The position numbers were made by a program, and so were the translations under genes. The notes beneath the pieces were generated by a model. That model saw only the letters and a program-made list of their open reading frames with translations, made no database searches and was not told the DNA's origin. DNA of 64,000 bases from Nitrospirota bacterium. Its GTDB lineage: Bacteria; Nitrospirota; Nitrospiria; Nitrospirales; Nitrospiraceae. This document shows positions 11,479-50,233 of this stretch, piece after piece. The stretch is from NCBI GenBank assembly GCA_030645475.1, contig JAUSMA010000021.1, positions 62,001-126,000 on the forward strand, read 5' to 3'. The number at the start of each line of letters is the position of its first letter. Positions within the stretch are counted from its first letter, which is position 1.

Positions 11479-11523
11479 GTCAGTCGATTCTCGGTTTATC
11501 ACGGACTATTGCGCAATTCTTTC

Positions 11524-26249: not shown

Positions 26250-27429
26250 GATTCGAAAGCCATCGCTTGGCTTCGTGGATTCCCGGTTTCATGTCCGAAA
26301 GCCGAAAGATCTCATTGTACATATCCTTCTGCCACAGTCTCATAAAACGGATGATTGAGCGAAATCTTCCGTCATGTCCAGGAGGAAGATGAAGCACGTC
26401 CCGGCGCTTAAAGAGCCGCATCATCAACGCGTCGAGATCGCCTAAAAACCACCGACTTTTAACCCCGACTCGATAGGTATCGACCGGTTTGACCGGCTCA
26501 TCCGCCATCGTCTGAAGCAAGAGAGCTGGAAAATCAACGCCGGCATCAATCGCCAGTTGCAATGACCCCCAAAAGCGGCCGTTGATTTCCATCAACTTCA
26601 AGGTCTGATCAGCCAGATCCATCTTGAACTCAACCATCGCCACCCCTTGCCATCTCAATTCATCGAGCAGTGCCTGGGCGTAGCGCTTGGCTTGAGGAGA
26701 AACCGGCACACTCTCACGGAGCACGCTCACCCCGCCAGACGGAGGCTTTTCACGGAGTCGCCGATGGCTGAACTGAGCCACCAGCTTGCCACGCTGATAA
26801 CACATGAACACGCCGACACCGGGGCCAACGATCCGCTGCTGAAGAAGAATTGGATATTCACTAGGGTGCTTCGCGGCGAGAATCTCTGTGAGATCGTTCG
26901 CGTTTTCTGCGTAGGTCACAGATGTCGATTGCCACGTGCCATTCACAAGAATGCGTGACCGGTGGGGCTTGACGACGATCGGGAAAGACAGCCCCTCTGG
27001 CCACTGAGGGCGATCACCGGGTCTCGTCAAGACCACGCCGGTCGGAATGGGTATCGACAGCTTCTCCGCAAGCGCCAACACATCAACCTTGTTTGCCGCT
27101 CTATCGAACGTGGCAACGTCCGGAAACGGCACTCGACTGTGCTGCTCGAATGCGGACTTATGCTCGGCCACCAATGCCGTCGTAATCTCAGCGACCGGCA
27201 ACACCACATCGATCTGCAACTCCTTCACCGTCCGTAGAAGCGTCTGGACAAACCCCACACTGTCCAGCACGGGGTCAGGATAGGTCACGCTCTCGACACA
27301 GTACCGCGAGGTCTGAGCCAACGACGGCTGAACCTTTTCTCCGACAACAATCGAGTGCCCCTTGCTCCCCAGGGAACGGGTAATCGCCAAGGCAGCGCGA
27401 TTGTCACCGTCGGTCACGAGAATCTTCAA
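26242..27429 (-). CDS. ATP-grasp ligase
   Basis: This 395-residue protein has an N-terminal domain starting KILVTDGDNRAALAITRSLG and a central ATP-grasp fold: FPIVVKPHRSRIL (ATP-binding lysine), PILLQQRIVGPGVGVFM, MVEFKMDLADQTLKLMEINGRFWGSL (metal-binding Glu and Asn). These enzymes make an amide or ester bond by way of an acyl-phosphate. The substrate is unknown; in this locus it could add an amino acid to a sugar. The start is an unusual TTG overlapping the upstream stop as TTGA, so coupled translation is likely. Confidence 0.85.
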   Translation of the reverse strand: MKILVTDGDNRAALAITRSLGSKGHSIVVGEKVQPSLAQTSRYCVESVTYPDPVLDSVGFVQTLLRTVKELQIDVVLPVAEITTALVAEHKSAFEQHSRVPFPDVATFDRAANKVDVLALAEKLSIPIPTGVVLTRPGDRPQWPEGLSFPIVVKPHRSRILVNGTWQSTSVTYAENANDLTEILAAKHPSEYPILLQQRIVGPGVGVFMCYQRGKLVAQFSHRRLREKPPSGGVSVLRESVPVSPQAKRYAQALLDELRWQGVAMVEFKMDLADQTLKLMEINGRFWGSLQLAIDAGVDFPALLLQTMADEPVKPVDTYRVGVKSRWFLGDLDALMMRLFKRRDVLHLPPGHDGRFRSIIRFMRLWQKDMYNEIFRLSDMKPGIHEAKRWLSNHD

Positions 27430-28484
27430 AATAACCCCACCACACGAGCGAGAAACATCGGCATACTTTCAGTTGCGGCTTGACAAATATTGATCCGCTG
27501 AAGAGCAAAGGGATTGTCGTCACAGCTGACACTTCTCCCTTGGGCGAGAAAGGCCAGACGGAAACCAGATGCCTTGACTAATCCCGCCACCTCGGGATTC
27601 CAATAGCCCCTCGGGTAACTGAAGGTAGGAGTACCACATTTGAGCCTCAGGTCAATAACCTCCTTCGAAAGCTGAATATCTTCACGAGCCTCCGCAATCG
27701 GCATCTGGCTAAGCAGACGATGTTCGGCGCCATGCCCCCCAAACTCGATCCCTTGCCGCGACATCGTATCGACCTGCTCCCAATTCATAAAACTGTCTAT
27801 CCCCGTGCTATCTCCGTTCTCGACACGCAGCTCAATTCTCAGTTTTTTTAATGTTGCCTCTACCACAGAAGGAGTCAACCCTTTTCTATTCTTACTGGTT
27901 GCCTCAATAACGTGAGGCCTTGGATCGTCATGGCACACATCGAATATCTCTCCGAGACCGATGGGATCGATCAGGTCGCGGAGCCTCGTCTCCCTGGCGG
28001 GATCCTTTCTCGCCGTCATCACAGCCAGTACAAGAAGATGCACAAGCGCTTCTTGCCAAAAAAGCCGGTTCCTACCGATGAAGTTGACGGGGAGAAACAC
28101 CACCGCCGGCAGCTCATACTTTCGAAGAATCGGCAGCGCATTGGTAAAGTTATCCGTCCATCCGTCGTCGAACGTGATCAAGCAGGACGAATCATCAAAT
28201 GGAATTTTGCGGCTCATTCGATCCGCAAATTCTTCGAGCGAGAGCACCTTGAACCGGCGCTTCACTACAGCCATCTGCTCGGAAAATGTCTCCCGATCAA
28301 CCATGATGGCAGGATGCGAACCGCTACGGGCACGTTCCTCCAGAGTCAAGACGCGGTGATACATGAGAATCACTGCACGGCGCTTAAGCGTTATCGACTG
28401 CCACAGCTGTAATAGACCCAGGGCATATAAGATGTGGGAGATGACCACTTTAATCGTGAACTTGACTCGCTCGCTCGCCGTCAT
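27426..28484 (-). CDS. Polysaccharide deacetylase family protein (NodB domain), first copy
   Basis: This 352-residue protein has the NodB-fold blocks AVILMYHRVL, CLITFDDGWTDNFTNALPIL (catalytic Asp-Asp), VFLPVNFIGR, EFGGHGAEHRLLSQM (metal-binding histidines), and TFSYPRGYWNPEVAGL. It probably removes N- or O-acetyl groups from the glycan or modifies its lipid carrier. A hydrophobic stretch near residue 12-25 may be a signal anchor. The gene overlaps VanZ-TPR upstream and ATP-grasp downstream by 4 bp each. Confidence 0.87.
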   Translation of the reverse strand: MTASERVKFTIKVVISHILYALGLLQLWQSITLKRRAVILMYHRVLTLEERARSGSHPAIMVDRETFSEQMAVVKRRFKVLSLEEFADRMSRKIPFDDSSCLITFDDGWTDNFTNALPILRKYELPAVVFLPVNFIGRNRLFWQEALVHLLVLAVMTARKDPARETRLRDLIDPIGLGEIFDVCHDDPRPHVIEATSKNRKGLTPSVVEATLKKLRIELRVENGDSTGIDSFMNWEQVDTMSRQGIEFGGHGAEHRLLSQMPIAEAREDIQLSKEVIDLRLKCGTPTFSYPRGYWNPEVAGLVKASGFRLAFLAQGRSVSCDDNPFALQRINICQAATESMPMFLARVVGLF

Positions 28485-29488
28485 CCGGCATTCCCTTCCA
28501 GTTTGTCTAACGCCACACGAGCGGAGCGCCCAAAGCGATCCGTTGGATTCCGTTCAATTTGGCGCTTAAGATACTCCATCGCTCGAACCTCGTCACCCAT
28601 CTCGCGATAGGCCTCGCCCAGGTGGAGATCGATGCAGTAAATATGCGGGTTCAATGTTTTGGCCCGTTCAAGGAACACTAGCCCATCATGAACTCGGCCT
28701 GCCCGGACTAAAACCCACCCGTAGGTGTCGAGAATGTCTGGATTGTCCGGATCCATCCGGATAGCCTGTTCGGCATACCGTTCCGCCTGGACCGGATCCG
28801 CCCCCAGAAACTCAATGTCCAACCATGCGATCGTATTGTACAGCTCCGGGGACTGAAAACCGCTTTCTACTGCCAGCATGTATTCCGCCCTGGCTCGCTG
28901 GTAGTCGTGCTCCCGTTCATACACCATTCCACGATTGAAGTGTTTGAGATCATGGTACGTCTGCGAGGTCACTGCGGCGACCGGCAAAAGAAGGAGCACC
29001 ACAATCGCAATAGTACGGCCCATGCCCAATCGCCCTGCCGTGACCAACGTCAGCCCGACCAATACGCCAGCAGCATCTGCCACCAGATCGCCGTATTCTG
29101 CCGTCCGCCCCATACCAAGCAGAGCCTGTTGCGCCTCATCCGCTACTGAGATGAGAAGGGAAAGACCTACCGCGACACACAACTTCTCCCATTCTTGATC
29201 TGGCCACGCGCGACCGCGCATCACACCATATGCCATCAAGAACACCGCCATGAATGCAAAAAAATGAGTCGGTTTATCCAGGCCAGGAAACTGGAGCCAT
29301 ACCTTCGAGAGCGTTCCCGCCACAACGTTCGGCAATATCAACAACACGGACAGCATCAGGAGACCCATCCACCACGGGATTCCCCTTCTCAGGCGAGCAG
29401 CGATCGCCCCTATACCTAGCCCGGGAGAACCGCCTCCTGACCCGAGGTGGAACTCGATCCACAGTCTGGTTTTCTTACTCAGCGACAT
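28481..29488 (-). CDS. VanZ-like membrane protein with C-terminal TPR repeats
   Basis: This 335-residue protein has four hydrophobic segments between about residues 35 and 180. They contain the VanZ hallmark GLDKPTHFFAFMAV and SVADEAQQALLGMGRTAEYGDLVADAAGVLVG. From about residue 190 several tetratricopeptide repeats follow (NRGMVYEREHDYQRARAEYM, DPVQAERYAEQAIRMDPDNP, LGEAYREMGDEVRAMEYLK). VanZ-domain proteins often occur beside exosortase systems, but the domain's function is not settled. The TPR part, predicted in the periplasm or cytoplasm depending on topology, may bind partner enzymes of the locus. Confidence 0.82.
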   Translation of the reverse strand: MSLSKKTRLWIEFHLGSGGGSPGLGIGAIAARLRRGIPWWMGLLMLSVLLILPNVVAGTLSKVWLQFPGLDKPTHFFAFMAVFLMAYGVMRGRAWPDQEWEKLCVAVGLSLLISVADEAQQALLGMGRTAEYGDLVADAAGVLVGLTLVTAGRLGMGRTIAIVVLLLLPVAAVTSQTYHDLKHFNRGMVYEREHDYQRARAEYMLAVESGFQSPELYNTIAWLDIEFLGADPVQAERYAEQAIRMDPDNPDILDTYGWVLVRAGRVHDGLVFLERAKTLNPHIYCIDLHLGEAYREMGDEVRAMEYLKRQIERNPTDRFGRSARVALDKLEGNAG

Positions 29489-30593
29489 GCCTATCCGTCC
29501 CCTTTACGAAACTCCTGAACATCTGCTGTGCACGCCTCATAGCGAATTGATGAAAATCTCCACTGAGGCTCAGGAACCCATGGAGGGACGTCGGGTACAG
29601 CGCCAATGAGGTCAAGATATGGCGATGGCGTGGCCACATAGCCTGCCATAGCTCCTCGGACCCGAGAAACTCATAGGCCTCAAGTCCTTGCTCGAATGCG
29701 TAACGGATAGTCTCCATCGTCAGCTGAATCCCGGGAGAACATCGAGCCCATTCCTCGTCATACCCAATTTTGAGCACCCAAAACCTTTGTGCGTCTTGAA
29801 TACCGAGGATCGTGGCGATCGCCTCCCCCTGCACCTCCAGGAAACAGACACGAAGCGCCCCGCGATCACAGGCCATCTCACTGTACGCGGCAATGAACGT
29901 TCGCACGCGCTCGTTGGCAAGAAGCGCAGAACCTGATCGTGCTTTCCAACCGGCCCCTTCAATTCTAAAGGCTTCCTCAAGCAAATGCGGAAGGTCAGCT
30001 CGGGAGCTCGGACACTCGACCCTGACAACCACCTGGCCTAGCCGCTCCATTCGCTTGCGCTTTCGCTGATAGTCGTAGCGGCGTTGCCCTGAAATCGATC
30101 GAAAATAGTCCTCCCAGCCTCCCGTGATGCAGACGTACGCAGCATCCGCGGTCTTTCGACTGAGAACCACTCCGCGATAGCGAGTCAGCTCACGAAACGT
30201 GGCTTCAATCGGAGACTCAGCGGGAATCCTGGCAAGTACCGTCGGCATTCGAAGACTGATTATTTTTCGGACTAAATGCTGAAGCGACTCTACCCCGTCA
30301 TAGAGAAATCCGCCAGGTTCGTAGAGCACCGACACCCCGAGCAATTCCAACCACTCAACCCCACCGCGTCTGACGACGACAAGTGGCGCCACAGCACATA
30401 TCGCATCCTTCGAGCGCACCACCACGATTCGAAGATCGGATTCGGCGCACAGAGTCATCGCACAGGCGAGAAACCAGTCCGCGCCCAGGAGAGGACTGCC
30501 AAATCGCTCGGCAAGGACATCCCAGGCAGCCGCCATGCTTCGCATGTCGTCAACCCGAGTGAGCACATCCACTTCGTAACCATACCAATCCAT
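29475..30593 (-). CDS. GNAT/FemAB-like acyltransferase (BcsL/CelD type), first of three adjacent
   Basis: About 372 residues with the Acetyltransf_6 (FemAB-like) fold. The N-terminal part WDVLAERFGSPLLGADWFL, the central SGQRRYDYQRKRKRMERLG, and the C-terminal acceptor block FWVLKIGYDEEWARCSPGIQLTMETI with YAFEQGLEAYEFLG are characteristic. Family members transfer an acyl or aminoacyl group onto polysaccharides or cell-wall precursors. The ATG at 30593 leaves a 20 nt gap after the upstream gene; an alternative start at 30668 would overlap it. It overlaps VanZ-TPR by 14 bp. Confidence 0.75.
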   Translation of the reverse strand: MDWYGYEVDVLTRVDDMRSMAAAWDVLAERFGSPLLGADWFLACAMTLCAESDLRIVVVRSKDAICAVAPLVVVRRGGVEWLELLGVSVLYEPGGFLYDGVESLQHLVRKIISLRMPTVLARIPAESPIEATFRELTRYRGVVLSRKTADAAYVCITGGWEDYFRSISGQRRYDYQRKRKRMERLGQVVVRVECPSSRADLPHLLEEAFRIEGAGWKARSGSALLANERVRTFIAAYSEMACDRGALRVCFLEVQGEAIATILGIQDAQRFWVLKIGYDEEWARCSPGIQLTMETIRYAFEQGLEAYEFLGSEELWQAMWPRHRHILTSLALYPTSLHGFLSLSGDFHQFAMRRAQQMFRSFVKGTDRHVAE

Positions 30594-30613
30594 ACTGACG
30601 GAGCCGCCCAATT

Positions 30614-31750
30614 CTATGAAATCTGAGACTTGGTGTCCCGGGGATTGACGTACTCCACCTGATGACAATCACTCGCTCGAAGAAACGCTCTGGCCCTTCG
30701 ATACACACGGCACGCAAAACCCTTGGCAGAAGGGGCAAATAGGGTAAGCGACCGATGCCAGCGCATCTCGTCGGTCCACTGACTCTCCCATTCATACGGC
30801 TCAGCAGGAAAGTCGAACTGCCTTACTCCCCGCCCGATAAGCTCCTCTACAAGTTTGGCCCGAAGAAACGTAGAAGGACTCAGCGGCCGCTCTGCGTAGT
30901 CATAACTCGTCTTTAAATAAAAGTATGTGTCGTTCACGATGAGCCCAAGATTGTAGGCAATCGGCCGATCGTCGAGAAAGAGAAACCTTAGATGAAGCCA
31001 GTTCCGTTGGAATGTCCGTTCGCAGAGATACCGATAGAAGACCGTTTGGCGAGACACAGCGGCAATGGAAGTGCCATGGGTCTGTTTCCACGATCGCTGC
31101 TCGATGGAAAGGAGCACCTGATAGGCTTCATCGATGCCAGTAAAATCTCCCTGATTCCGAATTTCTAGACGCCCATGACTCATCAGCTTTCGCTCGGTTC
31201 GTTTCAGGGCATTCCGGAAGCTGCTCGATCGCCGCCGGAGGTATCCTTCGAACGTTTGATCCAGCCTTAAAAAAAAAGACGGTTGCTCGTTCGTGAGCTC
31301 GAAGGCTTTCCGACGTTGGCGCAAAATTCTGCACCATAACTCGCCAAGCGGTTCCCCCTCCAAAAGCCGTGTCATATTAAACACGTCCCAACGAAGATCC
31401 AGACAATAGAGCGCATCAACGAAAGCGGTTAAAACTGGTTCTGACACCTCTTCGATCAGCAAATCACTATGCGTATTTGACAGCTCAGAAACGGGAAAAG
31501 CCGTGATAAATGTCTGCCCCAGCTGTTTCATCGGCCGCAACACCAACGGAACAATTCCGATAACGGTGTTGCGACGCCTCAAGACGATAAATACCAGATC
31601 ATCGCTTTCTTGAACGTGAGACTCCATGAGTGCCGCCGTCCATTCGAAGGAGGTCGATGGCTGATTATTTCCATGCTCGACGAGACGATCCCAATCCTCC
31701 TTCAACTGGCGGAGCATGGCTCGGCCGCGATGAATTTCTGCCAGGACCAT
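30614..31750 (-). CDS. GNAT/FemAB-like acyltransferase, second
   Basis: This 378-residue protein has the same architecture as its neighbour: LKEDWDRLVEHGNNQPSTSFEWT, then RRSSSFRNALKRTERKLMSHG, then FLDDRPIAYNLGLIVNDTYFYLKTSYDYAERPLSPSTFL (in blocks) and GVRQFDFPAEPYEWESQWT. This is the FemAB/Acetyltransf_6 fold. The two copies are clearly diverged, so they probably act on different acceptors or donors. The ATG immediately follows the stop codon of the upstream glycosyltransferase with no intervening base. Confidence 0.75.
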   Translation of the reverse strand: MVLAEIHRGRAMLRQLKEDWDRLVEHGNNQPSTSFEWTAALMESHVQESDDLVFIVLRRRNTVIGIVPLVLRPMKQLGQTFITAFPVSELSNTHSDLLIEEVSEPVLTAFVDALYCLDLRWDVFNMTRLLEGEPLGELWCRILRQRRKAFELTNEQPSFFLRLDQTFEGYLRRRSSSFRNALKRTERKLMSHGRLEIRNQGDFTGIDEAYQVLLSIEQRSWKQTHGTSIAAVSRQTVFYRYLCERTFQRNWLHLRFLFLDDRPIAYNLGLIVNDTYFYLKTSYDYAERPLSPSTFLRAKLVEELIGRGVRQFDFPAEPYEWESQWTDEMRWHRSLTLFAPSAKGFACRVYRRARAFLRASDCHQVEYVNPRDTKSQIS

Positions 31751-32839
31751 TCAGGCCCTCTTCCCGATTCGCAAGATGACCTCCTGCAGCTTCATGGCCA
31801 CTCGACGAAAAAAACTCGGCAAAAACGTCAGGAACCAGAACCCCGGCACTGACAGACCATATCGCCGGCCCTCGACGAAAATTTTTCGCGCTTCCGTTTC
31901 ATGTCCGGGATAACACATGAGCGCGACGCCAAGCGCGCGATGAAGCTTTCCCATTGTGGCATCAACCATGATCTTATTCTCTCGATAATAGGCAGCGTCC
32001 TGAACCGCATGCCGCTCCACGATCTGGAGCAATTGCCGCTGTTTGCTGATGAAGACGACAGGCCCATCTGCCCGCTTTGTCGTGGAGATTTGTCCATCAT
32101 GATATCGAAGCTGATAGGTCGGGACATCGACGAATGCGATTCGATTGTGTTTGGCAATTCGAAGCACCAAATCGTACCCGTCAAATAGGGACAGGCCTTC
32201 ATCGTGATATCCGACCGAATCAAGCACGCTTCGACGCACCAGTACCGAATTGGTGAACACGAACAGAACTCTGAGGTATTGATTGAAGATATGTCCGAAA
32301 TGGATCCTCCGGTCCGACCACGAAAGACAGTCGATCCCGGCCTCCTTCAATGACAACGATGTATCGAAGTACCGGTCGTAGGTTTCGCCGTTTCGAAATG
32401 CAGGAGCGTGATACGTTTTCAGATGATACTCCTCCGCGATGCCGTCACCGAATCCCGAGAACTCCGAATACACCAAGCCGACATCGGGGAACTGATCCAG
32501 AACCTGCACCTGCAACGCAAGCTTGTGAGGAAGATACCGATCGTCGGAATCCAGGAACGCCACATATCTCCCCTTGGCGACTTTCATCCCCGCATTTCTT
32601 GCATGCGGCGCCCCACCGTGATTTGTTGTGACAATCGAGATTTTCGGCCGATACGGCTCAAGACGTTCAAGCGTGTCATCACTTGATCCATCATCGACGA
32701 CGATCACTTCGACGCTCTGGCAGGTCTGGGCAAGCACACTTTCAATGGCCTCAATGAGGAGCGGGCCACGGTTGTATGTCGGGATGATCACACTCACATC
32801 CACTTGTGGTGTGGTCTCGGCAGACCGGTTGATACTCAC
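31751..32839 (-). CDS. Glycosyltransferase family 2
   Basis: A 362-residue GT2 enzyme. VSVIIPTYNRGPLLIEAIESV, EVIVVDDGSSDDTLERL, PHARNAGMKVAKGRYVAFLDSDDRYLP (DxD site) and VLVRRSVLDSVGYHDEG are all present, the standard order of the family. The C-terminus has a hydrophobic stretch but no clear transmembrane helices. Its GTG start overlaps the upstream DegT-GNAT fusion stop (GTGA). Confidence 0.92.
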   Translation of the reverse strand: MSINRSAETTPQVDVSVIIPTYNRGPLLIEAIESVLAQTCQSVEVIVVDDGSSDDTLERLEPYRPKISIVTTNHGGAPHARNAGMKVAKGRYVAFLDSDDRYLPHKLALQVQVLDQFPDVGLVYSEFSGFGDGIAEEYHLKTYHAPAFRNGETYDRYFDTSLSLKEAGIDCLSWSDRRIHFGHIFNQYLRVLFVFTNSVLVRRSVLDSVGYHDEGLSLFDGYDLVLRIAKHNRIAFVDVPTYQLRYHDGQISTTKRADGPVVFISKQRQLLQIVERHAVQDAAYYRENKIMVDATMGKLHRALGVALMCYPGHETEARKIFVEGRRYGLSVPGFWFLTFLPSFFRRVAMKLQEVILRIGKRA

Positions 32840-35142
32840 GGCATTCCCCTCACCACGGATAGCAGTTTTTGCTTCAACGATTCCAGGAGGAACCGGCCTG
32901 AACCTCGAAAAATCTTCAGGCTCACCGTCTTTCGCGTGCTGTTGGTAAAGCGGCTCTTGAACGGCTCGTCTCCGATCGTGAAATCAAATTCCCGTCGTTG
33001 CTGCTCGATCGCATATCCGAGCAAATGCCGAAGCAGGACAAGGCCGGGCGAATGTTTCGCATACGTTACATCAAACGAGGGCTTGTACCACAACAACGTG
33101 CCGTTGTAATTAAATCCATAATGGATAGCCATGGGCTTCTCATTAAACTCGACAACTGAAAGCAGAAGCCACTCCTTGTCAGCCATGGCAACGGCGAGAT
33201 CCCGGTAAAATATTCGGTTACGCTCCTTGAGGAATAAACTAGGACTCTTGCTGCCTGCCCATCGAGCGACGTGCTGCTCAAAGAACCCAGCTAGATACGG
33301 AATGACTGCCGTTCCAGTCAGGTCCTTGAACGCAAGGGACCCATTACGCTCAAAATAGTGTTGCCGCCTACGCAACCCCGCCTTGTTGAATATCTTAAGC
33401 GCTTCATCCTCGTGCCCTCTAATCAGCAACCTATGGCATTGAAAATGGTCTTGCACCAAGATGCGCTGGCCCGTGCGCTGACAAATGGCCCGAACCAGCT
33501 CGATGGTTGACGATTCGCTTGGGATGTTATTCAGCTCGATCACATCCCAGCGTTCACGCATCGCAAAGATCCCGTCGAAAATTTTTTCTAAAACCCTTGG
33601 TTTGTCACTCACCGCAAGAAAGTCACAATAGTCCGCCTTGCCATCTCCCATAAACCGAACCAGCCGTTCCCCGATTAGCCCTCGTTGAACCACTAAGGGG
33701 GCTACTCCCACCACTCCTGCGGTATTAGACACCGCCACGAGCATCTGCTCATACTGGTCCCCAAACGCCTTAAGCCAGCTCTTTGTCCATTGATGCGTCT
33801 GAAATATTGTGTTCGTTTCACTCCCAGCAATCAGGGCATTCCACTGTTTTTCATCAAGCCCGGCAGAATCAATCCCTGGCAGGAGACGAGCCTCCAACTC
33901 CGGTGACGGTGCCTTGTGCTTACCCCGGCCAGGCCCCAGCACAGCGGTCACGCTTCGCACCATCCGTTCGTGGTCCTGCAACGTCACATATCCATGTGTC
34001 GGGAGGGTCACGATACGACGGGCAACCTCTCGTCCTCCCACGACTTCCCGTTCACCATCTCGAATATGGTCTCGTAATTCCAGCACATCGCTGATCGCAG
34101 TCGGATACGAAGCCGTCGCGCCGATTCCATTTGCGCAAAGAGCTGCCACCACCGCATCTCGATATCGAGGATGAATCAGCATTGGAAAACGGAGACAGGC
34201 AGGAACGGCCCGTGGGTTGGGCACAATCGGATCGAGGTACGGCCCCCAGGGGAGATCACTCATCAATCGACCGGCATTCTCGATGCGCCGGGCGTTGATC
34301 GCATCCAGGCGAGCGAAGAAACGGCGGCCCATCGGTGCCATCCATCCATCGTACTGCGCTAGAGGATAATCGATGCGACAGGCAGTGGTCCCCAGGCCCA
34401 GAAACGGAAGCATATTGGGCAGCCAATATCGCCGAGGGTGCAGCAACGCCGCATACACTAGGAGCTTCGCAATATGGATTAGCGATTCACCCGGCGCACA
34501 CTTCGGCAAGGTGCGCACTTGATCGTCAATCGCCGCCGCGATTCTCTCCGAGTTCGTCACGAGGATCCCGCCGTCGATCGAGGTAATATTCTTACCTTTA
34601 TCGAGGCTGTAAAGGCCCACGTCGCCCCAAGTCCCAGATGCTTGACCGTCGATCGATCCCCCGAGACACTGAGCCGCATCGTCCACCACAAACACGCCGC
34701 GCCCCTTCGCCCACCGTGTGATCGCCGGGAGATCGCTTGGCAAGCCATAGAGGTTGGTGGCGACGACCGCCAGCACCCGTGATCCGTCGATCGTCTCGAG
34801 TGCACCAGGAGCAAAATCCAGCGTGGCCGGATCGACATCGGCAAGGCGTACCTTCAACCCGGCCTTGACCACGGAAGATGCGACCGAGAAACAGGTGTAC
34901 GACGGGATAACCACTTCATCCCGTCGCCCGCCATCCAGCGTTTTCAGTGCGAGAAGCGCGAGCGTCAACGCGGCTCGTCCGGTTGAAACAAACACGCAGT
35001 ACCGGACCCCGAAGCGCGCGCGAATCTCTTTCTCGAATCGTACGAGTGTATCGTCATCCGTCAGCACATGCCGAGCCCACCACGCGATGTCGGCAATGCC
35101 CATCGGCGTTCCCGCTGGCGGTACGAATCGAAACACCGGCAT
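32836..35142 (-). CDS. Fusion of a DegT/DnrJ/EryC1 aminotransferase with a GNAT/FemAB-like acyltransferase
   Basis: This 768-residue protein has two complete domains. Residues 1 to about 395 are a PLP-dependent sugar aminotransferase: FVSTGRAALTLALLALKTL, VVIPSYTCFSVASSVVKAGL, VFVVDDAAQCLGG and SLDKGKNITSIDGG with the probable Schiff-base Lys184. Residues about 415-768 are an Acetyltransf_6 domain: NALIAGSETNTIFQTHQW, KAGLRRRQHYFERNGSLAFKD, and AIHYGFNYNGTLLWYKPSFD. Such a chain could aminate a keto-sugar and acylate the new amine, but this is inference. No sign of a frameshift or internal restart was seen at the join. Confidence 0.87.
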   Translation of the reverse strand: MPVFRFVPPAGTPMGIADIAWWARHVLTDDDTLVRFEKEIRARFGVRYCVFVSTGRAALTLALLALKTLDGGRRDEVVIPSYTCFSVASSVVKAGLKVRLADVDPATLDFAPGALETIDGSRVLAVVATNLYGLPSDLPAITRWAKGRGVFVVDDAAQCLGGSIDGQASGTWGDVGLYSLDKGKNITSIDGGILVTNSERIAAAIDDQVRTLPKCAPGESLIHIAKLLVYAALLHPRRYWLPNMLPFLGLGTTACRIDYPLAQYDGWMAPMGRRFFARLDAINARRIENAGRLMSDLPWGPYLDPIVPNPRAVPACLRFPMLIHPRYRDAVVAALCANGIGATASYPTAISDVLELRDHIRDGEREVVGGREVARRIVTLPTHGYVTLQDHERMVRSVTAVLGPGRGKHKAPSPELEARLLPGIDSAGLDEKQWNALIAGSETNTIFQTHQWTKSWLKAFGDQYEQMLVAVSNTAGVVGVAPLVVQRGLIGERLVRFMGDGKADYCDFLAVSDKPRVLEKIFDGIFAMRERWDVIELNNIPSESSTIELVRAICQRTGQRILVQDHFQCHRLLIRGHEDEALKIFNKAGLRRRQHYFERNGSLAFKDLTGTAVIPYLAGFFEQHVARWAGSKSPSLFLKERNRIFYRDLAVAMADKEWLLLSVVEFNEKPMAIHYGFNYNGTLLWYKPSFDVTYAKHSPGLVLLRHLLGYAIEQQRREFDFTIGDEPFKSRFTNSTRKTVSLKIFRGSGRFLLESLKQKLLSVVRGMP

Positions 35143-35204: not shown

Positions 35205-36233
35205 TCACGGAATCTCTCTCGCCACCAACGGTCCGAGCATGCTGGTGATCGGCATGGGGAGCATTCGCCACACGCGCATAGCCAATTGAAACTTTGGATT
35301 ACCCACATTCAGCTGAGGCATCGGACGACCGTCCCGGACAATGTACTGCCAGTACAGCTGCGTGGGATACGTATTCCACTTTTTCTTGAACGTCTCCCCT
35401 CCCGAATCGACCGTCGACCGTCCAAGGTGGAATAGTTGATACCCTCGCTCGCACGAATCCTTAATCATCTCCCAATAGAGGACATAGCTCGATTCGAGCT
35501 GGCGATACTCCGGCCGCGTCCCCAACCACATTCCTTCGACCGTATGGCCAAAATACCCGTTGAAGGCGGCAGACACGGGGACGCCCTCATAGTCCACAAC
35601 GAAAATCCTCGCTCGTTCGGGAAAGATCTTCATCACGCACTCGAAGAAACGCTTCTGATAGAGGGGAGTGCCGAGATTCTTCCAGCTCTCGCTCAGAATA
35701 TCGTAGAACGTATCGAGCAACTCAGGTCCACCGCACCGGACAGTCAGACCTTGCTTGTAGGCCTGCCGGATATGCTTGCGATGGCCGGTCTTGAAGGCAT
35801 CCCAGATTACGTCAGGATTGTTATCAAGCGTCACCGTGATACTGACCTTGTGTTCGGATGTCTGAAGGTCTCCGTCAAGCTTTCTCGTACTACGGATCTC
35901 GAGGTAGTCGACTCGGTGCTGATCGACGATCTTTCTTGCTTCATCGAGGAGCCGCAGTTCGACCCCTGGGTCGTCGGAGCAGGGCCCGCCATAATTCAGA
36001 AACGGAAGCGAACAGAGAATTTTCCCGAATACTCGGCCTTTCAAATAGACGAGGGGAAACACGCCACGAATCCGTCCCGCATCGACCGCTGCCAAATAAA
36101 ATGTCTGATGTCCAAAACAAGACTCATTCACCGCTTTCCAGCCGAATAAATGATAGAACGACGCATGCTCCTGACTGCACACAAACTCGTCCCAAGCCTT
36201 TTCGTAACTCTCATCACACTGAATAATTTGCAT
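35205..36233 (-). CDS. FemAB-like protein, XrtA/PEP-CTERM-associated type
   Basis: A 342-residue FemAB-family protein, starting MQIIQCDESYEKAWDEFV, with HASFYHLFGWKAVNESCFGH, PFLNYGGPCSDDP, TGHRKHIRQAYKQGL and a C-terminal GYQLFHLGRSTVDSGGETFKKKW. These blocks match the family I know as TIGR03019, one of the commonest companions of XrtA. FemAB proteins add amino acids to peptidoglycan precursors; the acceptor here is unknown. The ATG at 36233 and a GTG at 36236 are both possible, with GAGGG upstream. Confidence 0.88.
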   Translation of the reverse strand: MQIIQCDESYEKAWDEFVCSQEHASFYHLFGWKAVNESCFGHQTFYLAAVDAGRIRGVFPLVYLKGRVFGKILCSLPFLNYGGPCSDDPGVELRLLDEARKIVDQHRVDYLEIRSTRKLDGDLQTSEHKVSITVTLDNNPDVIWDAFKTGHRKHIRQAYKQGLTVRCGGPELLDTFYDILSESWKNLGTPLYQKRFFECVMKIFPERARIFVVDYEGVPVSAAFNGYFGHTVEGMWLGTRPEYRQLESSYVLYWEMIKDSCERGYQLFHLGRSTVDSGGETFKKKWNTYPTQLYWQYIVRDGRPMPQLNVGNPKFQLAMRVWRMLPMPITSMLGPLVAREIP

Positions 36234-36268
36234 CACGAATATCCCTCTCGGTCGCTCTAGGCCCTACG

Positions 36269-37012
36269 TTAGGTCGACTGGCAACGCTCTACAGCAGTCA
36301 GACATGACAGCAATCGACGGGCCGTACGTTCAGCAGCTGCGTGGGTCAAGTGGCCCCCATCGTTTGTATACTCCGGCACCAGCATCGGAACGGGATCGCC
36401 GTGATGGAGAAACCATGACGGTGTCCCGTCAGGAAACGTCGCTTCCATTTCGGCAAGATCGAACAGGCGTCCGGAACTCCCGTAGGCACCCCGGAGCATC
36501 TGATTATATGCATGGCGCCTGGCTTGGTCCCCCCGCTGGCGATTGACGCATCCAGCTTTCTCTCGCAACCAGTCCATGATCCCGCCCCCGATACATATGA
36601 GTGGCACCGTGACATGGAAAAAGACAATCTTGGGATATTTATCCCCGAGCAAATCCATCGTACTCTGATAATTCAAAAACAAGGTATCGATATCGGTATT
36701 GGCGGTAATATCCACGTAACAGAGCTTAAACAAGGCGACGTCCACACGCTCCCCCACCCCTGATTCAATCACCTGCGCAAAGGCCTGAAGTTTTGAGAAC
36801 GGGTCGCGGTTCTGCCCTACTCGAAAATGGGCAAACACGGGTCGTCGTAGCGACTCTGCATCGTTGGCTTCAATCACCTCAAGATGGTTGCCAGTCAGCG
36901 TCGAAAGCGCCTTCATGATGTCCGCGCCAACCGATTGATGGCCGAAACAAATTCTCATCCGTGCGAGCCCATCCCAAGAGGGCGCTAGGGATCGGTCGGA
37001 CTTCAGCCCCAT
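36269..37012 (-). CDS. Uncharacterised SGNH/GDSL-like hydrolase
   Basis: About 247 residues with no signal peptide seen. RICFGHQSVGADIM near the N-terminus could be the block I serine, VDVALFKLCYVDI, IVFFHVTVPLI and a C-terminal NDGGHLTHAAAERTA with Asp and His resemble blocks of SGNH hydrolases. The block II glycine and block III asparagine are not clear, so the assignment is tentative. It sits just before FemAB in transcription order, 35 nt away. The ATG at 37012 is chosen over the GTG at 37024 because AGGTGAT lies upstream. Confidence 0.6.
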   Translation of the reverse strand: MGLKSDRSLAPSWDGLARMRICFGHQSVGADIMKALSTLTGNHLEVIEANDAESLRRPVFAHFRVGQNRDPFSKLQAFAQVIESGVGERVDVALFKLCYVDITANTDIDTLFLNYQSTMDLLGDKYPKIVFFHVTVPLICIGGGIMDWLREKAGCVNRQRGDQARRHAYNQMLRGAYGSSGRLFDLAEMEATFPDGTPSWFLHHGDPVPMLVPEYTNDGGHLTHAAAERTARRLLSCLTAVERCQST

Positions 37013-37059
37013 CTCCGGTATCACCTGCTATTCCAAATTGTGCAATTCGGTCGGCCGAA

Positions 37060-38425: not shown

Positions 38426-39934
38426 CTAGGACGTAACAGGCGCCGATGATTGAACCGCGCGCAAGCTGATTTCGCGAAGATTCTGCCGCAACACCTTACC
38501 GGAAGGAGACTTGGGCAGCGCATCGACCACAATAATCGATTTGGGCCGTTTGTATTGCACTAACCCCTGAGCACAATGCGCGAGAAGCTCTTGGTCGGTC
38601 GCACAGCCTGCGGGTTTCAGTGTCACGACCGCGCAAATTTTCTGCCCTAAAATCGGATCGTCGACGCCGACCACTCCGGCCTCGTGAACTTGAGGATGCT
38701 GCAAGAGCACTTCTTCAATCTCCACAGGACTGATCCGATAGGCACCGGACTTGATCATCTCGCTATTGCGGCCTTCGATCGTCAGATAGCCATCCTCGTC
38801 TAATCGTCCCAGATCACCTGTGCGAAGCCATCCATCTCGGAGCGCATCAGCCGTGGTATGAGGATCTTGCCAATACCCTTGCATGATGTTATCCCCCGAA
38901 GCATACACTTCACCGACTTCTCCGACACGTGCCTCCGCGCCTCCCTCTTTGACGATCTTTAGAGTCACACCGGGAATTGCGCGGCCGGCTGATCCCTTTT
39001 TCACATCCAACAGGTCGGGAGGGAGATAGGTCAACCGTGCAGATGCTTCAGTTTGGCCATACATGATAAACAAACGCGCCCCCGAAAACACCGATCGTAC
39101 GCGAATCAACAGTTCTGACGGCATTGGACCGCCCGCGTGCGTCAAATACCGAAGTGCAGGGAACGAATATGATTTCAGACTCGAGTGGTTGAGCATGATG
39201 GCATAGGTGGTGCCCACACCGGAAAACCCGGTGACTTTCTCCCGCATCATACTTTCCAGAATGACGTGAGGATAGAGAAAGCTGTTTTCGATCACGAGCG
39301 TTCCACCGACAAAGAGGTGCGTGAGCATGACTGAATTGCCATAGGCATACATGAATGGAAGAACGGCCATCGCCGAGTCGTCCGACGTAAGTTGCAGATA
39401 CTCAAGAATCGACTTCGTATTGGCCATCAAATTCCGGTGCGTTAGCATCACGCCCTTCGGCTGGCCTGTCGACCCGGATGTATAAATAATTTGTGCGAGG
39501 TCCGCCGGACTCTTGATGGTCGACTCTCCGTGACGACAGGCAATGACCTGGTCGTCCTTCACAATAAATCGCAGGCCGACCGAATTCACATCGTCAATGG
39601 TCCAATGCTTGACTGCCGAAGAGGCGATCAGCCCTGTTGCACCAACATGGCGAATAATACGAGCGACCTCTGCGACCGGAACCTGGGGATGGATCGCTAC
39701 CACAACACCACCGGCCTGAAGCACAGCAAGATATGCGGCGATATAGTCAGGCGAATTCTCCATCCAGAGGATCGCCCGATCTCCTTCTATAAATCCGCCG
39801 TCGCTCAACCGGCTCTTCACCGTCGCGACAAGATCTCGCAATCCGCCATAGGTCCATTGTCGGCCCTTATAAACAACGGCGACCTTGTGAGGCCAGGAAT
39901 CCATCGTTTGAGCAATAACAGTCTCTACGCGCAT
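38426..39934 (-). CDS. AMP-forming acyl-CoA/acyl-ACP ligase, exosortase A-associated type
   Basis: This 502-residue class I adenylate-forming enzyme has the AMP loop IIYTSGSTGQPKGVMLTHRN, FIMYGQTEASARLTY, GWLRTGDLGRLDEDGYLTIEGR and C-terminal LPKSPSGKVLRQNL with the catalytic lysine, so it should be active. The exosortase-associated family is what I know as TIGR03098, of similar length. It lies after an acyl carrier protein gene, so the product is probably an acyl-ACP. GGGGAGGG directly precedes the ATG at 39934. Confidence 0.9.
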   Translation of the reverse strand: MRVETVIAQTMDSWPHKVAVVYKGRQWTYGGLRDLVATVKSRLSDGGFIEGDRAILWMENSPDYIAAYLAVLQAGGVVVAIHPQVPVAEVARIIRHVGATGLIASSAVKHWTIDDVNSVGLRFIVKDDQVIACRHGESTIKSPADLAQIIYTSGSTGQPKGVMLTHRNLMANTKSILEYLQLTSDDSAMAVLPFMYAYGNSVMLTHLFVGGTLVIENSFLYPHVILESMMREKVTGFSGVGTTYAIMLNHSSLKSYSFPALRYLTHAGGPMPSELLIRVRSVFSGARLFIMYGQTEASARLTYLPPDLLDVKKGSAGRAIPGVTLKIVKEGGAEARVGEVGEVYASGDNIMQGYWQDPHTTADALRDGWLRTGDLGRLDEDGYLTIEGRNSEMIKSGAYRISPVEIEEVLLQHPQVHEAGVVGVDDPILGQKICAVVTLKPAGCATDQELLAHCAQGLVQYKRPKSIIVVDALPKSPSGKVLRQNLREISLRAVQSSAPVTS

Positions 39935-40177: not shown

Positions 40178-40426
40178 TTATTTCCGCTTCTTCTCTACGT
40201 AGCGAGTAATGGCATTGATTGAATCTAGATTCGCCGGAATGAGGTCTTCGTCTTCAACCTTGACTTGAAATTGCTCTTCCAAGAAGGAGACCAACTCCAA
40301 GACCCCCGTCGAATCGATAATACCGGACTCTAGGAATGAGGCATCGCCGCTCAGCGCCACCTCTGTCCGTCCAAACAGCAATTTGTCAAGAATATACTTT
40401 CGCAGCTCTGTCTCAATCGATGACAT
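40178..40426 (-). CDS. Acyl carrier protein
   Basis: About 82 residues, all-helical and acidic, with the phosphopantetheine attachment serine in the motif ESGIIDSTGVLELV (the Ser of DST, in place of the more usual DSL). After 4'-phosphopantetheinylation it would hold an acyl or aminoacyl group activated by the adjacent AMP ligase. The ATG at 40426 lies one base after the asnB-like stop codon, with AAGGAG about 9 nt upstream; the GTG at 40435 has no spacing for a ribosome site. The motif resembles D-alanyl carrier proteins as well as fatty-acid ACP. Confidence 0.88.
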   Translation of the reverse strand: MSSIETELRKYILDKLLFGRTEVALSGDASFLESGIIDSTGVLELVSFLEEQFQVKVEDEDLIPANLDSINAITRYVEKKRK

Positions 40427-40427
40427 G

Positions 40428-42365
40428 TCACACACTCCTTGGAAAGTTCTTAATAAACCGGTCTATGACCACCTGAGTCGAGAGGACTCCAACCAACGCC
40501 ATATTATCCTTCATGCTTACAATCTGACCCTGCCTTGCCTTCTCCAATAGCTTTCCAACCGCCCCTGCATCAAACACACCTCCCTCCTGAATGGCGCGAG
40601 GAGCAAGCAGCTCTTCGACATACTCAAAGAGCTTGCCCTCCTTCCCGTCGGCAAGAAAACTCTGGCTATCAGGCGCACGGTACGGCTGCTTATGTCTGTT
40701 TCTGATCGAACGTGGAATCATGTCTCCGATGGCTGCCTTCAACAGATATTTCTCGTTCAAAACTTTCATCTTGAGCTGCGGAGAAAGTCTCGACGCAAAT
40801 TCCACGACCCGGTAGTCAAGGAAGGGGAACCGGCCTTCAATGGAATGGGCCATCGCCATCCGATCTCCTTGAGAAGAGAGAATATACCCCGGAAGGAGAT
40901 GGGCCGCTTCCAGATATTGCGATTGCGAAAAATGATCCCACTGCCCATATCGGCTTGGCAACAAACCTTCAATCGTATGCATCGCATTACAGCTCTTGAG
41001 GCTGTCCGCTGTTGCCTTGGAATAGAAAACTTTGAGCTTCGAGGTCATGTCCCAACGAGGCAAGTGAGAAAAAAACGGGCTCTCGACGTCTTCTTTTCTC
41101 ACATGGAAGAATGCGCGCAGATAGGCGTCGGACTGGGACTGGATATTTTTCATATAGGGATAGAGGCGCCTCAGAAGCATCGGCCGAAACTTTGAGTCCG
41201 GGTATTTCGCCCAGAATCGCCGGATCTTCGCTTCCTTGAAAATGTCGTACCCTCCCAGGATTTCATCTGAGCCCTCTCCTGTGAGCACAACTTTATACCC
41301 CTGCTCTCGCACCAGCTTAGATAACAGAAATAGAGGGGCGGGAGCCGTCCGCAGGACAGGTTTCTCGGTATGCCAAATCACTTCTGGAAATACTCGACCG
41401 ATATCCTGGGATGAACAGAGAACGCCTTGGTGATCTGTCCCGAGAAACTGGCTCGCCTCGTTTTGAAAACTACTTTCGTCAAACTCTTTATCTTCAAATG
41501 CGATGGAGAATGTTTTTAGATGCGTCGTCCCAAGCTTCTTCACCAGTGCGGCGATCACCGTTGAATCAAGCCCACCGCTCAGATAGGCGCCGACAGGCAC
41601 ATCCGCCCGTAAACGAATCCGAACAGCGTCGAGAAGCAGCTCAAACAGACCCTCTCTCGCTTCTTCTTCCTGCATCAACTCTTTCGAAGGATTGTAGTCG
41701 AGGGTCCAATACGGTTTGATCTGAAGATCGCCATGCTCAAGAATTATTGAATGTCCGGGAGGAAGCTCTGACACCCCTTCGAAAATTGTTCGAGGCGGGA
41801 GGGTTACCCAAAAAGTGAACAATTCATCCAAGGCCTGCCGATCAATTGCTCGAGACACGGAGGGAACGACCAGCAAGGACTTGATTTCAGATCCAAACAC
41901 AAACCCTTCAGGAGTCTGTGCATAGAAGAGCGGACGAACCCCCAACCGATCGCGCGAGAGAAATAACCGCTCGCGTCTGGAGTCCCAAATGGCAAAGGCC
42001 CACTGCCCATTCAGATCATGAACGCACTCTTCGCCCTTCTCTTCATACAGATGCACAATGACTTCTGTATCCGACTGCGTTTGGAACCGATGCCCCTTTT
42101 TGATGAGATCTTCGCGCAATTCGACATAATTGAAAATTTCACCGTTGAAGGTGATCCATACGGTCTTATCCTCGTTATGCATCGGCTGATGCCCACCGCC
42201 GACGTCAATAATGCTGAGCCTCGCGTGAGCGAGCCCCACGGGTCCAGACAGGTGGAATCCTGCCGCATCCGGCCCCCGATGATTCACCAAGCCGATCATC
42301 CGTTGGAGCAACGGCTTCTCAACGGCAGCGTTGGGGTACTTTACAATTCCTGCAATGCCACACAT
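40428..42365 (-). CDS. asnB: Asparagine synthase-like glutamine amidotransferase (second copy)
   Basis: A 645-residue protein starting MCGIAG with Cys2 as glutaminase nucleophile; NHRGPDAAGF, FNGEIFNYVELREDLI and the synthase loop AYLSGGLDSTVIAAL and TGEGSDEILGGYDIF follow. It is clearly different from the copy at 11616-13460. In exosortase-linked loci this family is known as amidotransferase 1 (TIGR03108). It is the first gene of the asnB-ACP-ligase set after an 812 bp gap, with the ACP gene next. It probably amidates an acyl-carrier-bound or sugar carboxyl group. Confidence 0.92.
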   Translation of the reverse strand: MCGIAGIVKYPNAAVEKPLLQRMIGLVNHRGPDAAGFHLSGPVGLAHARLSIIDVGGGHQPMHNEDKTVWITFNGEIFNYVELREDLIKKGHRFQTQSDTEVIVHLYEEKGEECVHDLNGQWAFAIWDSRRERLFLSRDRLGVRPLFYAQTPEGFVFGSEIKSLLVVPSVSRAIDRQALDELFTFWVTLPPRTIFEGVSELPPGHSIILEHGDLQIKPYWTLDYNPSKELMQEEEAREGLFELLLDAVRIRLRADVPVGAYLSGGLDSTVIAALVKKLGTTHLKTFSIAFEDKEFDESSFQNEASQFLGTDHQGVLCSSQDIGRVFPEVIWHTEKPVLRTAPAPLFLLSKLVREQGYKVVLTGEGSDEILGGYDIFKEAKIRRFWAKYPDSKFRPMLLRRLYPYMKNIQSQSDAYLRAFFHVRKEDVESPFFSHLPRWDMTSKLKVFYSKATADSLKSCNAMHTIEGLLPSRYGQWDHFSQSQYLEAAHLLPGYILSSQGDRMAMAHSIEGRFPFLDYRVVEFASRLSPQLKMKVLNEKYLLKAAIGDMIPRSIRNRHKQPYRAPDSQSFLADGKEGKLFEYVEELLAPRAIQEGGVFDAGAVGKLLEKARQGQIVSMKDNMALVGVLSTQVVIDRFIKNFPRSV

Positions 42366-43177: not shown

Positions 43178-44110
43178 TCAACCATTGAGGGTCTTCTCCG
43201 CAAGGCAAGGGGCGCTACCAGCTGCCGCGAACCCAAGAACTCGTTCCCTGTCAGCGCAGGCCACACCAACTGTGTCAACGGCTTCTCGTATCGACGCGAA
43301 TCTAAAGTCCTTCACCAATTGTTGCAATCGAGCTTCCGTTTTTCGAAGATTCAAGTAATGCCGAAACTTCGACACCAAAGACCCTTCCATCCTCGGCTGA
43401 TCTGGATCAAGCTCCCACGGGTGGAAATACATGACGAGTGGCTGCCCATCCGTTGCAGCACGCGTGAGCAAATTATGCAAAATCTGATACGGATACAACC
43501 GAAAATACCCTCCGCCTGCGATCGGAAGACGAATTGGTCCCATTCGCAATGTCGAAGGAGGAACTTCCCATAGAGCACCAGCAGGGGTCTCTAAGAGATG
43601 GCACCAGGGGTTGGCTCCAGGCATCCCATAGCGGTCATGTTGGATGGGAAAGATACTTGAGTCATAGACATACCCTTCCTCAACCAGTATAGGCAACGCC
43701 CACTTCGTTTCCGGTGTAATGGTAAAAGACGGGGCCCGGTAGCCGTGGACCGGCCCACCAATAATATTCTCGAGAATGTCTTTGCTGTTTCGGACATCTT
43801 CCCGAAATAGCCCCGGCGTCTGGGAGGTAATCAACTCATGTCCGAAACCATGTGAGGCTATCTCATGGCCATAACTCGCGATGGTCCTCACAAGCTCAGG
43901 ATGTTTTTGGGCAACCCATCCAAGCACAAAAAATGTTGCATGAATCCCCTGAGCCGAGAGGATTGAGAGAATTTTCTCGACATTCCGCTCCACCCGGCTC
44001 TCATAGCTGTCCCACTGACGTCTCCTCATCGTCGACCAAAAGGCAGCGACTTGGAAATGCTCTTCTACATCAAATGAGAGCGCATGTACCCGACTTGCTT
44101 GCGGCTTCAT
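43178..44110 (-). CDS. Polysaccharide deacetylase, XrtA-associated type (DUF3473-like)
   Basis: This 310-residue NodB-fold protein has ALSFDVEEHFQVAAFW with the catalytic Asp near residue 15, TFFVLGWVAQKHPELV, GHEIASHGFGHELI (two histidines), HGYRAPSFTITPETKW and the C-terminal MYFHPWELDPDQPRM. These match the family I know as TIGR03006, paired with XrtA. It should deacetylate the glycan. It is one gene before the long gap and 5 nt after the sugar transferase gene. Confidence 0.92.
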   Translation of the reverse strand: MKPQASRVHALSFDVEEHFQVAAFWSTMRRRQWDSYESRVERNVEKILSILSAQGIHATFFVLGWVAQKHPELVRTIASYGHEIASHGFGHELITSQTPGLFREDVRNSKDILENIIGGPVHGYRAPSFTITPETKWALPILVEEGYVYDSSIFPIQHDRYGMPGANPWCHLLETPAGALWEVPPSTLRMGPIRLPIAGGGYFRLYPYQILHNLLTRAATDGQPLVMYFHPWELDPDQPRMEGSLVSKFRHYLNLRKTEARLQQLVKDFRFASIREAVDTVGVACADRERVLGFAAAGSAPCLAEKTLNG

Positions 44111-44115
44111 TGTTC

Positions 44116-45162
44116 CTAACGGGCCCCTTCCCCAAGCAGAACAACTCTGGCCGTTTCAGTCAGTATTCGAAAATCCAAGGCTAGGGTCATGTTCTTCACA
44201 TAGTACAAATCGTATTGAAGCTTGGTATGTGCATCCTCAGCAGTCGATCCATAGCGAAATTGTGTCTGTGCCCATCCCGTCACCCCAGGTCGAACCGTGT
44301 GCCGAATATCGTAGTAGGGGATTTTCTTCCTGAGTTCATCGACAAACACCGGCCGCTCAGGACGTGGGCCAACCAAGCTCATCTCTCCCCTTAACACGTT
44401 ATAGAGCTGTGGCAGCTCATCGATCCTCAGCTTCCTGAGTATACGTCCAACACGAGATATTCGAGGGTCCTGTTTTTCCGCCCATCGAGGTCCACTCTTT
44501 TCTGCGTCGCTATACATCGAGCGAAATTTCCAAATCATATATGGCTGACCGCGCAGCCCGACACGCATCTGCCTATAAAAAACAGGGCCAGGCGAATCCA
44601 TTTTGATAAGAAGGCCAATCAAAACACACAGTGGCAGCAGTAGCACCATGCCAATGGCCGAGAGCATCACCTCTACAGCCCTCTTCAACCCCATTGTTAA
44701 GACTCGCCGCTGAAATCCTGTTGAGAAGATGAGCGCACTCGGTCGAAGCTGGTCGATTGATAGACGCCCTGACTCCTCCTCATACATTTGATGCCCGTCA
44801 ATCACCTTGATACCGATGGTTTTGCAATCGAGCAGGGCTTGAACAGGAAGAACCGACCGTCGATCTTCTACGCACACCGCAATAGTATGAACCTGAAATT
44901 TCTCAACTACCTCACAGAGGTTCTCATACGTACCAATGATCTGAGGACTCCCTAAGTGAGAACTTGTTTGCGACGGCTCTCGATCAATGAATCCGACCAC
45001 TTCCATAGTCATGCGGCGCTTTGTCACAAGGATATGATACACTTCGGATGCGAGCTGGCCACAACCAAGGATAACCACGCGTCGCTTAAGGCTGTATGGC
45101 CTTCGCTTAGGACCAGGCATCTCCCTCAAACTAGGAATGATCACAGCAGCAACTTTCTCCAT
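44116..45162 (-). CDS. Undecaprenyl-phosphate sugar-phosphotransferase, shortened N-terminus
   Basis: This 348-residue protein has a Rossmann-like domain (RRVVILGCGQLASEVYHIL, residues about 28-130) and the bacterial sugar-transferase domain: KRAVEVMLSAIGMVLLLPLC membrane helix, SPGPVFYRQMRVG, WKFRSMYSDAE, DELPQLYNVLRGEMSLVGPRP and VRPGVTGWAQ. It should start repeat-unit synthesis by moving a sugar-phosphate to undecaprenyl-phosphate. The XrtA-associated relatives I know (TIGR03013, about 460 residues) carry four or five N-terminal membrane helices; these are missing here, leaving a single transmembrane segment. No upstream in-frame extension was seen. Confidence 0.9.
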   Translation of the reverse strand: MEKVAAVIIPSLREMPGPKRRPYSLKRRVVILGCGQLASEVYHILVTKRRMTMEVVGFIDREPSQTSSHLGSPQIIGTYENLCEVVEKFQVHTIAVCVEDRRSVLPVQALLDCKTIGIKVIDGHQMYEEESGRLSIDQLRPSALIFSTGFQRRVLTMGLKRAVEVMLSAIGMVLLLPLCVLIGLLIKMDSPGPVFYRQMRVGLRGQPYMIWKFRSMYSDAEKSGPRWAEKQDPRISRVGRILRKLRIDELPQLYNVLRGEMSLVGPRPERPVFVDELRKKIPYYDIRHTVRPGVTGWAQTQFRYGSTAEDAHTKLQYDLYYVKNMTLALDFRILTETARVVLLGEGAR

Positions 45163-45164
45163 CT

Positions 45165-47486: not shown

Positions 47487-47488
47487 CG

Positions 47489-48817: not shown

Positions 48818-48830
48818 ATGCACAAAAACT

Positions 48831-49466: not shown

Positions 49467-49486
49467 TCCGTTTCTCCCCTACGCAT

Positions 49487-50140: not shown

Positions 50141-50168
50141 GGCAACCCTCATGTGATGAACCGACTCA

Positions 50169-50196
50169 ATCATACCTTTTCGCGCATAAGGTGCAA
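50169..50196 (-). promoter_or_regulatory. Candidate sigma-70-type promoter before the Wza-like genes
   Basis: On the minus strand TTGCAC, a 16 bp spacer, and TATGAT (5 of 6 matches to the -10 consensus). Its start would give a leader of roughly 20 nt to the ATG at 50140. It sits between the PilZ gene and the first export gene; if real, it separates PilZ from the rest of the array. The -35 match is weak. Confidence 0.35.
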
Positions 50197-50233
50197 GAAA
50201 CTCCCCTAACAAACACACATCGGAAACTCGGAC

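Follow-up and report, generated by a model that had tools for sequence, protein, structure and literature searches.

A gene fusion joins a DegT-type aminotransferase to a predicted FemX-like tandem-GNAT domain in an XrtA-type exopolysaccharide region of a Nitrospirota bacterium

Can a single polypeptide aminate a sugar and next acylate the new amine for exopolysaccharide synthesis? This question is raised by an open reading frame (ORF) of 768 codons at 32836-35142, minus strand, in a 64,000-nucleotide stretch of a Nitrospirota genome (assembly GCA_030645475.1, contig JAUSMA010000021.1, positions 62,001 to 126,000; the whole stretch is hereafter called the window). The original prediction, made from the sequence alone, held that this chain unites a complete pyridoxal phosphate (PLP) aminotransferase with a complete Acetyltransf_6 domain, that it would aminate a keto-sugar and acylate the new amine in sequence, and that such a fusion is uncommon. 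The gene fusion is genuine. With moderate confidence, we read it as a recent joining of two enzymes that would act one after the other, amination and then acylation, in the making of an exopolysaccharide.

The frame contains no internal stop codon across its 768 codons, and both domains pass their Pfam cut-offs, namely DegT_DnrJ_EryC1 (PF01041; E 3.1e-46, 158.7 bits against a cut-off of 19.8) and Acetyltransf_6 (PF13480, amino acids 588-730; E 2e-30, 106.3 bits against a cut-off of 22). The predicted combination of the two in one chain is thereby borne out. The DegT half comprises amino acids 1-398 (33949-35142, minus strand), with the DegT-type PLP enzyme itself spanning amino acids 3-398; a linker follows at amino acids 399-432 (33847-33948, minus strand), and the tandem-GNAT half extends over amino acids 415-768 (32839-33900, minus strand), its first 18 residues overlapping the stretch that we call the linker. 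An SPG loop at residues 698-700 and the pair F728-K729 lie within the GNAT half.

The same fusion recurs in G085, which belongs to the same genus, again as one open frame, with 89% identity over amino acids 2-768 to the version in the window's own genome (G000, 3.7 Mb, in which the window lies on contig C21). Between these two genomes, the DegT domain (amino acids 1-398; 93% identity) differs at 25, 8 and 68 first, second and third codon positions with 28 of 398 codons nonsynonymous, and the GNAT domain (amino acids 433-768; 89% identity) at 26, 13 and 80 with 37 of 336 nonsynonymous. Because the differences sit mostly at third codon positions, both domains look selected. The linker (31% identity) differs at 18, 12 and 17 positions, with 22 of 32 codons nonsynonymous and one two-codon difference that keeps the frame; between the two genomes it looks to be drifting freely, without sign of selection. 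An open linker is weak evidence when taken alone, because about 32 free codons could remain open by chance. The stronger evidence for a real fusion is that two genomes share a single frame from end to end, and the presence of the fusion in a second species of the genus at 89% identity makes an assembly error unlikely. No frameshift interrupts the join in the window, yet the corresponding genes lie in different frames in five of eight relatives.

In each of these eight close relatives, which are those with readable flanks (G314, G378, G363, G370, G369, G368, G367 and G216), DegT and GNAT are separate, adjacent genes; G366, whose contig ends 170 bases beyond the DegT stop, was excluded from the count. 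The paired genes overlap by 4 bases in three of the eight (in G378 by 4 or 1 bases, depending on the start chosen), and in the remaining five the first possible GNAT start lies 20-27 bases on. Both genes occupy the same frame in G363, G370 and G369 (loci L064, L065 and L066), where a single stop at the DegT end keeps them apart. Trees built from each half group G000 with G085 (support 100/100 for DegT and 87/86 for GNAT), and in both trees G370, G369, G368, G367 and G216 stay together. G363 joins these five in the GNAT tree (99/98), but the DegT tree does not resolve its place; a grouping of G314 with G378 is supported in the DegT tree only (88/83). The simplest reading of these trees is one fusion event in the common ancestor of G000 and G085, and the fusion is apparently recent, local to the lineage and formed from operon neighbors. 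In a Nitrospira-type lineage, a DegT gene of an XrtA exopolysaccharide cluster would have lost its stop and run into the adjoining gene for a FemX-like tandem GNAT; a change of frame would also have been needed if the ancestor resembled G314.

Within the range searched, the fusion is as uncommon as had been supposed. A family search (match threshold E 1e-45, up to six candidates scored per genome) covered 175 genomes, 62 of them with a match, and returned two fused genes, those of G000 and G085. Two of 32 genomes of the genus are fused, with ten carrying a match at 1e-40, and in a draw of 295 genomes across the phylum (up to three candidates scored per genome) these same two are the only full-length frames among the matches listed. 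A wider scan, which may omit records very close to the window's genome, found both domains in one frame at none of the best 80 loci out of 505 relatives; 24 of these 80 loci score at least 350 bits against the DegT profile, and some belong to genomes already counted above. Among 72,556 plasmid records, none matches 80% of the query at a single location, and an initial scan of genome contigs returned no relative. A widespread fusion was not seen within the data searched, in which unrelated DegT-GNAT fusions elsewhere were not sought as such. The combination of DegT and Acetyltransf_6 in one chain was likewise not met in the literature searched, although a published case may exist; the separate parts are already known.

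The PLP residues of the DegT half are, by alignment, intact. All 16 aligned rows carry D155, Q158 and K184 without variation, and K184 aligns with the lysine of the KNI stretch in 8gyh, which we take to be the PLP-holding residue. In Pcryo_0638, Asp156 and Gln159 are described as contacting the pyridoxal (PMC8040287). Structural comparison with solved PLP sugar enzymes gives the DegT half Z scores of 37-41 (maximum 40.6) over about 345 residues, in agreement with the prediction of a complete PLP half; the structure matches listed for the whole chain concern this half alone and are uninformative on the GNAT half. An NCBIfam scan of the DegT half reached the cut-off of no family equivalog, so it assigns no substrate. 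The DegT half likely installs an amino group, with a sugar as the putative acceptor. Using PLP, it would move the amino group from an amino acid onto a keto-sugar, probably a nucleotide-linked one. A candidate source lies in the window itself: since RmlC, RmlA, RmlD and RmlB (4193-7657, minus strand) all pass their cut-offs (TIGR01221, TIGR01207, TIGR01214 and TIGR01181, respectively), thymidine diphosphate (dTDP)-4-keto-6-deoxyglucose should be made there.

Modeled alone, the GNAT half reaches a mean predicted local distance difference test (pLDDT) score of 94.1 and a predicted template modeling (pTM) score of 0.89, and the model contains two GNAT domains in tandem. The transferase fold is thus complete, as foreseen; the claim of a complete Acetyltransf_6 domain stands as a Pfam match but covers only the second of the two GNAT domains. 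The model suggests a FemX-like fold, with Z scores of 21.2-22.6 to FemX (6snr, Z 22.6, root-mean-square deviation 4.0 over 304 residues), 20.7 to FemA and 20.2-20.8 to Sbb17/Sba18. Sequence searches return less. Even with E values as high as 1 allowed, Pfam lists only Acetyltransf_6 for the fused GNAT half and has no FemAB (PF02388) match there; phmmer finds no match between the GNAT half and solved sequences, and a profile of 19 GNAT rows gave five chance-like matches only.

What, then, would the GNAT half transfer? The canonical loop by which GNAT enzymes hold coenzyme A (CoA), Q/R-x-x-G-x-G/A, lies between beta4 and alpha3. At this position, taken from the strand order of the predicted model, GNAT domain 2 lacks the canonical loop in 19 of 19 rows, so CoA is only a candidate donor. 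A stretch in GNAT domain 1, RFMGDG at amino acids 496-501, fits the pattern in four of the 19 rows. The donor is plausibly acyl-CoA, the acyl-loaded form of a nearby acyl carrier protein (acyl-ACP) or an aminoacyl transfer RNA (tRNA). For the acyl-ACP option, the window offers an acyl-CoA-ligase-type enzyme (38426-39934, minus strand; related to TIGR03098 of the exosortase A system, below cut-off) and an 85-amino-acid acyl-carrier-type protein (40178-40435, minus strand; PF00550 at 28.1 bits, cut-off 20.8; no NCBIfam family passed its cut-off), which could together supply the acyl group. The carrier gene sits between asparagine-synthase-like and acyl-CoA-ligase-like genes. Whatever its donor, the GNAT half would acylate an amine for the exopolysaccharide, and the simplest candidate is the amine just installed. 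Amination followed by acylation in one chain is plausible; the joining itself may do no more than fix a 1:1 ratio and hold the enzymes close, the expected chemistry being what the two enzymes would perform unjoined.

The setting fits such a role. Marker genes identify the region as an XrtA/PEP-CTERM exopolysaccharide cluster, and four XrtA markers near the fused gene (TIGR03019, TIGR03006, TIGR03007 and TIGR03013) score above cut-off. The first belongs to the upstream FemAB gene (35205-36236, minus strand; 324.1 bits against a cut-off of 260.35), 62 bases before the fused gene, and the other three to the core XrtA exopolysaccharide genes at 43178-50218 (minus strand), where a kinase (TIGR03018) and two export proteins (TIGR03027) also match below cut-off. 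Directly downstream lies a glycosyltransferase of family 2 (31751-32839, minus strand) that overlaps the fused gene by 4 bases. A fusion of this kind is a 'Rosetta stone' link, indicating that the two proteins are probably partners in a single pathway of XrtA exopolysaccharide clusters; the sugar chemistry of such clusters is, to our knowledge, poorly worked out. It also offers one construct for assaying amination and acylation side by side.

Several observations weigh against this sequential reading. RmlABCD constitute a complete dTDP-rhamnose pathway, and rhamnose alone explains their presence. The neighborhood of DegT, counted over 64 distinct proteins of at least 350 bits (the window's included, at loci that are best matches and form an uneven sample), points to a different partner. 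Of 62 with more than 1 kilobase available upstream, 55 have a gene matching the GNAT/FemAB profile directly upstream and seven have none; among the 59 with more than 1 kilobase available downstream, the next gene is a separate GNAT in eight, the GNAT is fused in two, and neither holds in 49. Because those 49 have no GNAT directly after them, DegT does not need this particular GNAT, and by this count its steady neighbor is the upstream FemAB. All ten upstream proteins picked for closer comparison (nine from the 55 and one from locus L116, outside the count) pass the TIGR03019 cut-off, and the TIGR03019-DegT pairs include Steroidobacter, Thiodiazotropha, Zixibacteria and Geotalea. This conserved FemAB-DegT pair, found across several phyla and with a putative joint function, is the wider lead. 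Nor does the model of the whole chain argue for cooperation between the sites: the AlphaFold prediction has a pTM of 0.56 and a disordered stretch in the linker (pLDDT below 50 at amino acids 405-413), and for these reasons shows no defined packing of the halves and no sign of a tunnel between their sites. Finally, given a conserved in-frame ATG at codon 394, preceded by AGGA, and the drifting linker, the GNAT half may also be translated separately.

An unlikely alternative, though one with several points in its favor, concerns the donor. DhpH joins an N-terminal PLP domain to a FemX-like domain that depends on Leu-tRNA, and by the same logic the GNAT half could be aminoacyl-tRNA-dependent, the chain installing an amine and attaching an amino acid to it in exopolysaccharide synthesis. 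The 20 best structural matches by Z (17.1-22.6) are FemX, FemA, Sbb17/Sba18, MprF and related lipid aminoacyl-tRNA enzymes, plus 2hqy, a protein of unknown function. FemX, FemA and Sbb17/Sba18 (20.2-22.6) stand clear of the other tandem GNATs, which start at 16.9, but the MprF-type rows (16.8-18.3) fall within 1-2 Z of these, and identity to the FemX structures is just 10-13%. F728-K729 aligns with a Phe-Lys pair in the window's FemAB, which aligns in turn with the Phe-Lys of S. aureus FemX; both steps are weak, and in the second the stretch across the pair is insignificant alone (4.6 bits; whole match E 2.1e-4). In the C-terminal domain of DhpH, Lys329 is described as essential and analogous to FemX Lys305, with a contribution from Phe328 (PMC12945691). 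All 11 rows that represent this GNAT or its two stand-alone relatives retain the Phe/Tyr-Lys pair, but lysine at 729 also occurs in two of eight paralogue rows (as Tyr-Lys and Trp-Lys, with Glu, Gln or Leu in the other six) and may be a family trait. The missing canonical loop in GNAT domain 2 favors a tRNA donor, whereas the acyl ligase and carrier protein nearby speak for an acyl one. The fold that is shared reveals no donor: FemX is likewise the nearest relation of HfsK, a tandem GNAT that acts in the biogenesis of Caulobacter holdfast exopolysaccharide and whose role is still debated (PMC5362036). Were tRNA the donor, a single chain would aminate a sugar and then add an amino acid from charged tRNA to yield an aminoacylated exopolysaccharide, and FemX-type chemistry would perhaps be shared by the FemAB that accompanies DegT across phyla; by analogy with DhpH we entertain this extension as quite doubtful.

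Also unlikely is that the two halves have unrelated acceptors. The GNAT half would then act on amines bared elsewhere, for instance by the polysaccharide deacetylases of the cluster, and the fusion would be a near-neutral joining of neighbors. The authors of the HfsK study suggest just such a transfer, with the deacetylase HfsH uncovering the acceptor amines (PMC5362036); the window has two genes of deacetylase type (27426-28484 and 43178-44110), and the free drift of the linker also speaks for this reading. The adjacency of DegT and GNAT in all eight split relatives, however, suggests a shared pathway step. The artefactual explanation, that a sequencing or assembly error erased a stop between two genes, is highly improbable: the nearest relatives do have separate genes, with frames that differ in five of eight, but the fused frame is open in two genomes with unlike linkers that differ by a frame-keeping two codons, and where G314 has its GNAT start codon the fused genomes carry Glu and Pro codons (in a poorly alignable linker, the next G000 codon being TTG).

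Other features of these loci deserve mention. Two separate tandem-GNAT (Acetyltransf_6) paralogues follow the glycosyltransferase (30614-31750 and 29475-30668, both minus strand); the Phe-Lys pair is absent from both, the two carrying Trp-Glu and Trp-Gln at this position, so they may use another donor or have a specialized role. In the same gene row as the fused ORF, a 251-amino-acid ORF at 36269-37024 is matched by neither Pfam nor NCBIfam families at E 0.001. The 805-amino-acid ORF at 45165-47582 combines a chain-length determinant (TIGR03007, above cut-off) with a tyrosine autokinase (TIGR03018, below), and a 691-amino-acid ORF at 9427-11502 combines a GFO_IDH_MocA oxidoreductase domain with an Epimerase-type NAD-binding domain. 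Outside the window, L098:3998-6022 (Pelotalea chapellei) holds a DegT orthologue and an exosortase (PF09721, amino acids 412-666) in one open frame of 675 codons, apparently another fusion of the same DegT with its downstream gene, in one genome. L116:3860-7288 (Candidatus Manganitrophus) has the order GNAT, FemAB, DegT, with the DegT match spanning two overlapping frames, perhaps through a frameshift.

Comparison with known systems places the two halves in familiar company. The DegT half resembles in fold the guanosine diphosphate-perosamine synthase 3bn1 (Z 39.9) and Pcryo_0638 (7l7x, Z 38.9), with which it also shares its PLP residues. Pcryo_0638 is described as an aminotransferase followed in turn by the N-acetyltransferase Pcryo_0637 (PMC8040287); these are separate proteins, whereas the window encodes one chain, and Pcryo_0637 is a left-handed beta-helix enzyme, whereas the second half here is a tandem GNAT. 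The XrtA/PEP-CTERM cluster of Nitratidesulfovibrio vulgaris plasmid pDVUL01 has deacetylase, FemAB, DegT and glycosyltransferase 2 genes in the order seen in the window, but there DegT stands as a separate gene that no GNAT follows. FemX and the FemABX enzymes share the tandem-GNAT fold and the Phe-Lys pair with the window half, despite the low identity given above. HfsK is a stand-alone protein and a cyclic diguanosine monophosphate effector (PMC5362036), whereas the window GNAT is fused. DhpH, of dehydrophos biosynthesis, is described as a larger enzyme whose C-terminal part is a FemX-like, tRNA-dependent tandem-GNAT domain (PMC12945691), an arrangement like that of the window protein. DhpH belongs to a natural-product peptide pathway, whereas the window protein stands in an exopolysaccharide setting with putative tRNA use.

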